DNA from: Bacillota bacterium
GTDB lineage: Bacteria; Bacillota; Limnochordia; Darwinibacteriales; Darwinibacteriaceae
DNA: 64,000 nucleotides
Assembly: GCA_012837385.1 (NCBI GenBank)
Contig: DURH01000020.1
Location: forward strand, 1 to 64,000
Reading direction: 5' to 3'
Shown: positions 1 through 1,403 of the stretch, in pieces
How positions within the stretch are numbered: the stretch's first letter is position 1
How the letters are laid out: each line of letters starts with the position of its first letter
Notes under the pieces: generated by a model
What the model saw: only the letters and a program-made list of their open reading frames with translations
What the model was told of the DNA's origin: nothing
Database searches by the model: none
Made by a program: the position numbers and the translations under genes

Positions 1-236
1 AAGGATTTGGCGGCACCTTGGTGCTTGATGTAACCGTCGAGGGCGGCAAGATTACAGCCATCGAAATAGTGGAAACGAGCGAAACGCCGTTTATCGCTGA
101 TACAGCCTTTAAGGAACTGATCCCCGCCATTATCGAAGCGCAGGGACCTGTAGATGTAGTCAGCGGAGCAACCTTCACTAGTAGGGCAGTGGAAAATGCT
201 GTGCGTGATGCCCTGAGCAAAAAGGAGGGCCAATAA
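1..236 (+). CDS. rnfG: RnfG-like FMN-binding domain protein, C-terminal part (5' truncated by window edge)
   Basis: Frame 3 reads GFGGTLVLDVTVEGGKITAIEIVETSETP...VVSGATFTSRAVENAV; SGATxTS is the FMN_bind motif; followed directly by rnfE and rnfA. Confidence 0.8.
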   Translation, partial: GFGGTLVLDVTVEGGKITAIEIVETSETPFIADTAFKELIPAIIEAQGPVDVVSGATFTSRAVENAVRDALSKKEGQ

Positions 237-237
237 T

Positions 238-825
238 ATGAAACCGTTATGGGATGGTCTGTTTAGGAAAAACCCTGTGTTAGTGCTTGCCCTTGGGCTG
301 GTACCTGCTGTGGCAGTGACCACCACCGCCATGAATGGCCTGGCTTTGGGGCTGCTGACTGTGGCTATTTGGCTGGCAGCTACCATTGTCAGCAAGGCGG
401 CTGCTCCTTACGTCCCTGCGACGGCGCGGACGGCAGTGCGGTTGCTCATTCTCATCGTATTGGTTGTCTGTGTTTACGCCGTGCTGCTGAGGCGGAACCC
501 CAGCTTGGTCGCGAGCCTGGGCATCTTCCTGCCCCTCATAGCTGTTAATGACCTGCTGCTCAGGGCTGGCAGGGAAGAACAGGGTATGAAAGAAGCCCTC
601 CTTAACACTCTAGGTCAGGGCTTAGGATTTGCCCTGGCTCTGTTGGTGCTCGGCATGATCAGGGAATTCTTGGGCTACGGGTCCCTTTTCGGTACACAGA
701 TCCTCTCTGGACGCCTGGCGCCCTTGTCCTTGGCCAGCACTGTCCCAGGGGGTATGATCATCCTGGGGCTGGTTATGGCTGTAGTGAATCTAGTGAGCAA
801 GCAGGGAGGGGAACTGCATGAGTAA
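238..825 (+). CDS. rnfE: Electron transport complex RnfE-like membrane subunit (divergent, lacks conserved Cys)
   Basis: KNPVLVLALGLVPAVAVTTTAMNGLALGL, LGIFLPLIAVNDLLL, LGMIREFLGYGSLFG match the RnfE/NqrD pattern; follows FMN_bind protein. Confidence 0.85.
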   Translation: MKPLWDGLFRKNPVLVLALGLVPAVAVTTTAMNGLALGLLTVAIWLAATIVSKAAAPYVPATARTAVRLLILIVLVVCVYAVLLRRNPSLVASLGIFLPLIAVNDLLLRAGREEQGMKEALLNTLGQGLGFALALLVLGMIREFLGYGSLFGTQILSGRLAPLSLASTVPGGMIILGLVMAVVNLVSKQGGELHE

Positions 826-1351
826 TGGACTAGAAATCTTGGCGCAGACAGTCGTTAGTGGAAACCTAATCTTGATTCAGGGTTTGGGGCTCTATGCGCT
901 CACCCGGTATACTAAGAATGTCAAAGAAGCCGTTGAGGCGGGCATAAGCGTTGTCACCAGTATGCTGGTGGGCTCAGTGCTGCTCTGGCTGTGCGGCTCG
1001 ATTATTCCGTCATCACCCGTTCCTCAGCTTGGTTTCTACCTGTTAGCAGCCTTGGCAGCAGCCGTTTTGGCGCCTCGGATTCTGAAGCAGGATCCCTCCG
1101 CTGAAAAGATGGCAGTGGACAGTGCCTTGGTTGGACTTTTACTGCTGCTCGGCCGGGACGGCGTTACAGGTGTCCAGAACGTTTGGATCGCTTTAGGTGC
1201 GGGAGTGGGCTACCTATTGGTGTTGGTTGTTATGGCAACCATAAGGAAGCGTTTGGAGCTGGCACCTATACCGAAGCCGCTGCAGGGATTGCCCATTCTG
1301 CTGATTACAGCGGGCTTATTGGCCGCGGCACTGATGGGCTTTAGATTCTAG
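818..1351 (+). CDS. rnfA: Electron transport complex RnfA-like membrane subunit (divergent, lacks conserved Cys)
   Basis: Multi-TM protein of Rnf/Nqr A/E size with GLGLYALTRYTKNVKEAVEAGI and DSALVG positions; overlaps rnfE by 8 bp. Confidence 0.75.
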   Translation: MSNGLEILAQTVVSGNLILIQGLGLYALTRYTKNVKEAVEAGISVVTSMLVGSVLLWLCGSIIPSSPVPQLGFYLLAALAAAVLAPRILKQDPSAEKMAVDSALVGLLLLLGRDGVTGVQNVWIALGAGVGYLLVLVVMATIRKRLELAPIPKPLQGLPILLITAGLLAAALMGFRF

Positions 1352-1364
1352 GATGGTTGAGATG

Positions 1365-1403
1365 AAAGCTCCGGGGAAGCCTTTTTTTCCCCGGAGCTTT
1401 TTG
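1365..1403 (+). terminator. Rho-independent terminator after rnfA
   Basis: Inverted repeat AAAGCTCCGGGGAA / TTCCCCGGAGCTTT followed by T residues. Confidence 0.85.

Follow-up and report, generated by a model that had tools for sequence, protein, structure and literature searches.

Results

The locus and its upstream continuation

The window, by which we mean the whole 64,000-nucleotide stretch of Bacillota DNA analysed here, is the start of a contig (C65) and opens inside a cluster of rnf-like genes, whose features are listed in Table 1. Window positions 1-99 are identical to the final 99 bases of another contig of the assembly (C28), which carries the rest of the interrupted gene together with rnfC (L038 5651-8923, with rnfC at L038 5651-7027). 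The joined order is rnfC, an rnfD::rnfG fusion that ends at window position 236, rnfE*, rnfA* and a hairpin, the last of which was not among the calls of a consensus terminator scan. The contig join is supported by seven other genomes, in which the fused open reading frames are unbroken. Neither rnfB nor apbE is present in the cluster of this genome, and rnfB was not found in any complete cluster of this genome or its relatives. We refer to this cluster as half-Rnf.

Table 1. Features at the start of the window that belong to the half-Rnf cluster
Feature	Position	Strand	Details
C-terminal FMN_bind domain (SGATFTS flavinylation motif) of 675-aa RnfD::RnfG fusion	1..236	+	PF04205, E 1.8e-18
rnfE* (RnfE-like membrane subunit without [2Fe-2S] Cys ligands: V22, D105)	238..825	+	195 aa; PF02508, 110 bits
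rnfA* (RnfA-like membrane subunit without [2Fe-2S] Cys ligands: Y26, S102; half-helix TM4a deleted)	818..1351	+	177 aa; PF02508, 59 bits
Strong intrinsic-terminator-like hairpin closing the operon	1364..1402	+	MFE -28.1 kcal/mol, z = -4.89

The initial annotation of this DNA had described a neighbouring G subunit with an intact SGATFTS motif. The motif is indeed intact, but the domain that bears it proved to be the last of three FMN_bind domains in the RnfD::RnfG fusion, with the motifs SGATIS, SGATVS and SGATFT; the fusions of relatives have two to six such domains. The first domain is RnfG-like and the second matches the solved domain of the multi-FMN protein 8p2b. A transmembrane segment is predicted at residues ~305-328 of the fusion, after the RnfD part and ahead of the FMN_bind domains. 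The RnfD part itself (RnfD*) matches PF03116 with 325 bits, and its TTATPL, GGLGHN and FMATD motifs, aligned to 7zc6_D and 9eri_D, indicate that it keeps the covalent FMN (flavinylation) site and the riboflavin-site region. The fusion proteins lack a PF00175 NAD-binding domain. RnfC* scored 416 bits against A. woodii RnfC (9eri_C), has matches to PF01512, PF13375 and Fer4, and retains both the FMN-binding Nuo51-like domain and the two CxxCxxC motifs, i.e. the FMN/NADH domain and the two [4Fe-4S] motifs of an RnfC.

The cluster is flanked by obgE-nadD-lytR-rsfS-methyltransferase on one side and comEA-comEC-holA on the other (names assigned by eye, comEA excepted). These flanks are the same in relatives of different families, a sign that the cluster has been inherited vertically. 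Around the operon lie housekeeping, spore (small acid-soluble spore protein-like) and competence genes, with no dedicated acceptor gene adjoining it, and Rfam searches upstream of eight loci found no FMN or other riboswitch.

Loss of the cluster ligands in both membrane subunits

The [2Fe-2S] cluster of A. woodii Rnf is ligated by C25 and C113 of RnfA and C25 and C108 of RnfE, and mutation of these Cys abolished growth and activity (PMC11889175). Using the solved A. woodii complex (9eri) as the reference for ligand mapping, we found V22 and D105 of RnfE* at the positions of RnfE C25 and C108, and Y26 and S102 of RnfA* at those of RnfA C25 and C113. The sole remaining Cys of each protein, C78 in RnfE* and C59 in RnfA*, is elsewhere. 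The alignment thus bears out what had been proposed from the window, namely that all four intramembrane ligands are missing from the two subunits, through Cys to Val and Asp changes in RnfE and Cys to Tyr and Ser changes in RnfA, and that the one Cys left in each lies away from the ligand positions. We considered whether the remaining Cys might be shifted ligands and rejected this as they are not conserved, many orthologues having no Cys at all. An assembly or frameshift artefact was likewise dismissed, the identical state being present in orthologues from 29 other genomes.

Across the window genome and its relatives the ligand Cys are absent from 30 of 30 RnfE* and 29 of 29 RnfA* sequences, whereas all are present in 34 of 34 canonical comparison sequences. 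The RnfE* orthologues have V, A or M at the C25 site and G, A, D, S, E, T or R at the C108 site; those of RnfA* have S, T or G at the C113 site. At RnfA* position 26 (window 893-895), the first RnfA Cys site, the residue is aromatic in all 29 (27 Tyr, 2 Phe), a near-invariance suggestive of a specific role, in packing or with a cofactor.

Substitution is not the only change in RnfA*. A deletion of up to eight residues, together with substitutions, has removed the GxFLPLITT half-helix (TM4a), including L108 and T110, and E88 is also lost, so that the initial account of this subunit as altered by substitutions was correct for its Cys but incomplete. In A. woodii, L108 (the gate), T110 and E88 gate or bind Na+, and reducing the AE cluster provides the electrostatic drive for Na+ uptake (PMC11889175). 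RnfE* mostly keeps L103 and R/K67, although R67 is variable, and keeps E115 inconsistently; the full complement of Na+ gate and site residues of canonical RnfA/RnfE is thus not present in the pair.

Both proteins are still recognizable. RnfE* scored 112.8 bits against A. woodii RnfE, and its AF2 model superposes on that subunit (9eri_E) with a TM-score of 0.88. A. woodii RnfA is the nearest solved structure to RnfA* by both sequence and fold, the match of the AF2 model being a weak one (TM ~0.63-0.65). In the RnfA* model TM1 and TM4 appear continuous rather than broken, which is only suggestive, as the models are of monomers, from shallow alignments, with pLDDT ~71. Scores against the NCBIfam models were well under the cut-offs (RnfE*, 109 bits against 213 for RnfE; RnfA*, 73 bits against 229 for RnfA), and neither NCBIfam nor the literature searched yielded a long-recognized Cys-less Rnf subfamily, the finding that would have overturned the initial annotation.

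Distribution and constraint

Half-Rnf was identified in 30 of 37 genomes of one Limnochordia-like order (RnfE* in 30, RnfA* in 29) and in none of the 36 other genomes of the class. Matches in a 399-genome sample of the phylum were confined to the same order, with 226-263 bits versus at most 109 elsewhere. A scan of GTDB representatives with one conserved peptide pattern, which divergent copies would escape, returned 24 loci, all in Bacillota MAGs, labelled as Clostridia, Limnochordia, Natronincola, Peptococcaceae or unclassified Bacillota/Firmicutes.

In a tree with canonical sequences RnfE* and RnfA* each formed a monophyletic clade with support of 1.0, and every complete locus combined the Cys-less subunits with the fusion of RnfD to a multi-FMN RnfG and was without RnfB. 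None of the 30 RnfE* and 29 RnfA* sequences had a frameshift or internal stop. Estimates of dN/dS were ~0.04-0.2, values that are approximate since dS is near saturation. By these sequence comparisons RnfE* and RnfA* are under purifying selection, relaxed yet preserved, in keeping with the earlier view that concerted substitutions in the two subunits mark a distinct family and not random decay.

The relaxation differs between subunits. Identities between the window genome and a relative, G004, were 85% for RnfC*, 90% for RnfD*, 64% for RnfE* and 73% for RnfA*, versus 86, 88, 85 and 90% for canonical RnfC, D, E and A; for a second relative, G031, the respective values were 59, 60, 42 and 45% versus 60, 66, 64 and 68%. 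As the RnfC* and RnfD* identities resemble the canonical ones and those of RnfE* and RnfA* are lower, the NADH-to-flavin half is about equally constrained in both systems and RnfA* and RnfE* are relaxed, which is the pattern that loss of a redox role in A and E alone would give.

Canonical rnf and accessory genes

The initial annotation had suggested looking for a second, canonical operon, and the genome does have a complete rnfCDGEAB-apbE operon with all Cys present, on contig C45. This separate operon led us to reject the possibility that canonical Rnf has diverged as a whole. The single RnfB and the single ApbE of the genome are both encoded within it; a candidate second RnfB on C36, with a weak PF04060 match, was rejected as an unrelated MobB-like protein (named by eye from its sequence). 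A canonical rnf operon accompanies half-Rnf in most of the genomes that have it, and only one ApbE is encoded in each of those checked. In G005, a MAG of the same genus that is 95% complete, half-Rnf is present and canonical Rnf, RnfB and ApbE were not detected, probably due to a missing contig, or else to real loss.

Stand-alone FMN_bind proteins are encoded at four loci of the window genome, on C9, C20, C31 and C45 (L121 2322-2942, L122 5571-6290, L123 4631-5092 and L124 787-1485). They have one or two domains and signal- or anchor-like N-termini, and are possible electron acceptors of half-Rnf.

Discussion

A proposed cluster-free NADH-to-outside route

Electrons in Rnf pass from ferredoxin through RnfB, the [2Fe-2S] cluster of RnfA/RnfE, the FMN of RnfG and the flavins of RnfD to RnfC and NAD+ (PMC12174285). 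In half-Rnf the steps before RnfG are missing or disabled, and those from RnfG to RnfC are intact with the flavin part extended, so that outward flow is the parsimonious reading. We consider it reasonably likely that this paralogous complex oxidizes NADH at the membrane and exports the electrons. RnfC, with its FMN and two [4Fe-4S] clusters, would oxidize NADH, and electrons would cross the membrane via the riboflavin and covalent FMN of RnfD to the RnfG domain fused to it, and then pass through one to five more covalently flavinylated domains to extracytosolic acceptors, such as the free FMN_bind proteins, secreted or anchored in the membrane, of the same genome. The ferredoxin-input half, consisting of RnfB and the RnfA/RnfE cluster, would have been discarded. 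RnfA* and RnfE* would stay as a cluster-free scaffold and partner of RnfD and RnfG, with a part in assembly, in sealing or in holding the flavin domains in position, and would have ceased to power the Na+ cycle that canonical Rnf couples to redox chemistry. The initial proposal, a membrane flavoprotein complex descended from Rnf whose electrons take another path, is thereby supported by the Cys-less clade, the fusion, the absence of RnfB, the selection on both subunits and the separate canonical operon, the path itself being what we infer from them.

Several observations sit less easily with NADH oxidation over a scaffold. Persistence of RnfA* and RnfE* in all complete loci needs more than a loss of function to explain it, and the near-invariant aromatic residue at the RnfA* ligand site hints at something other than a pure scaffold. 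In addition, no acceptor adjoins the operon, ApbE is encoded solely in the canonical operon, and G005 has neither canonical rnf nor apbE. The persistence of the two subunits, and the purifying selection on them, would be accounted for if half-Rnf were still an ion pump in which NADH-driven reduction of the flavins of RnfD and RnfG moves the RnfG domains against RnfA*/RnfE*, acting as a cluster-free, alternating-access carrier of Na+ or H+. The preserved fold of RnfE*, with L103 and R/K67 mostly kept, is compatible with such a carrier. We nevertheless regard it as unlikely, as Na+ uptake in A. woodii is driven by reduction of an AE cluster that cannot form here with known ligands, RnfA* is without L108, T110, E88 and TM4a, and E115 of RnfE* is inconsistent. 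The presence of a canonical operon in most half-Rnf genomes, and of one ApbE in those checked, could instead mean that half-Rnf docks on the canonical complex and borrows its RnfB or RnfA/E, giving the electrons of ferredoxin a second way out. This is quite doubtful given that half-Rnf retains an RnfA*/RnfE* pair of its own and that in G005 half-Rnf was detected but neither canonical Rnf nor RnfB was, although that MAG may miss a contig.

The direction of flow could also be the reverse, with extracellular electrons entering the flavin chain and RnfC reducing NAD+. Identical parts would suffice, RnfC being the NAD+-reducing output end of canonical Rnf (PMC12174285), but an extracellular donor near or below the potential of NADH would be required and none is encoded nearby, making this reading improbable. 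Finally, the loss of rnfB and of the Cys, along with the faster evolution of RnfE* and RnfA*, is what a slowly decaying duplicate of the rnf operon might display. Reading frames intact in every RnfE* and RnfA*, synteny conserved across the order, the low dN/dS and the gain of FMN domains make decay scarcely credible.

Relationship to known systems

Half-Rnf resembles the canonical Rnf of A. woodii, C. tetanomorphum and A. vinelandii in its rnfC-D-G-E-A order, its RnfC and RnfD cofactor motifs, the fold of RnfE* and a recognizable RnfA*. It differs in having no RnfB, none of the four A/E Cys in any orthologue, no TM4a in RnfA*, RnfD fused to RnfG and several FMN domains. Half-Rnf is also like the multi-flavinylated RNF of Meheust et al. 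2021 (PMC8238504), whose RnfG has more than one FMN_bind domain, as in half-Rnf, and for which a branch to extracytosolic acceptors was proposed. In that survey, however, RNF was scored by RnfB, which half-Rnf clusters lack, and NQR/RNF-like systems by a PF03116+PF00175 fusion; with neither RnfB nor that fusion, half-Rnf fits neither definition and would not be classed as RNF. Loss of the Cys and a D::G fusion are not reported in the passages of it consulted here. The two-subunit NQR/RNF-like systems (PMC8238504; PMC11334425) share with our reading of half-Rnf the idea of a single unidirectional path from NAD(P)H to the outside via an NqrB/RnfD homologue. Theirs is a fusion of NqrB/RnfD to an NqrF-like module (PF03116::PF00175), which half-Rnf does not have, and they are without RnfC and A/E, whereas half-Rnf has an RnfC NADH module and its A/E subunits persist. 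Multi-flavinylated RNF and unidirectional Nqr/Rnf-like systems are therefore known already; no description of multiple flavins combined with loss of both RnfB and the AE cluster turned up in the literature searched, and a search for RnfB-less Rnf also yielded nothing relevant.

The origin of Nqr has been modelled as duplication of an rnf operon followed by loss of rnfB, with the rnfCDGEA order kept (PMC4014512). Half-Rnf resembles the rnfB-less intermediate postulated there and looks as though it took that first step independently and arrived at another end point. Unlike Na+-NQR, it recruited no NqrF (the cluster contains no NqrF-like gene), its first gene is rnfC and has not turned into nqrA, and its A/E cluster was lost instead of kept. 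Whether half-Rnf should be ranked with Rnf and Nqr as a third line of descent from the Rnf core seems to us evenly poised; such a lineage would have arisen from a duplicated rnf operon that lost rnfB and the [2Fe-2S] cluster and fused RnfD to a growing flavin chain, giving a dedicated NADH-to-outside conduit in which RnfA and RnfE are non-redox.

To our knowledge, accounts of Rnf and Nqr treat the RnfA-RnfE [2Fe-2S] cluster as conserved in all of them and as what triggers the pumping of Na+. A cluster-free, order-wide version without the ferredoxin subunit is a natural control for separating electron transfer from ion pumping. Half-Rnf also suggests a flavin-based route of electron disposal in uncultured, anaerobic Bacillota of digesters.

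A third Rnf/Nqr-type cluster, with no NqrA seen nearby, was encountered in relatives (L054 6236-11847 and L055 7175-12086) but not in the genome that the window comes from, and similar D-G-E-A sets are present in L056 and L057. Its genes are NqrB-, C-, D-, E- and F-like with the Cys ligands kept, and it adjoins rubrerythrin or ferritin-like genes (Pfam-checked for L054 only).
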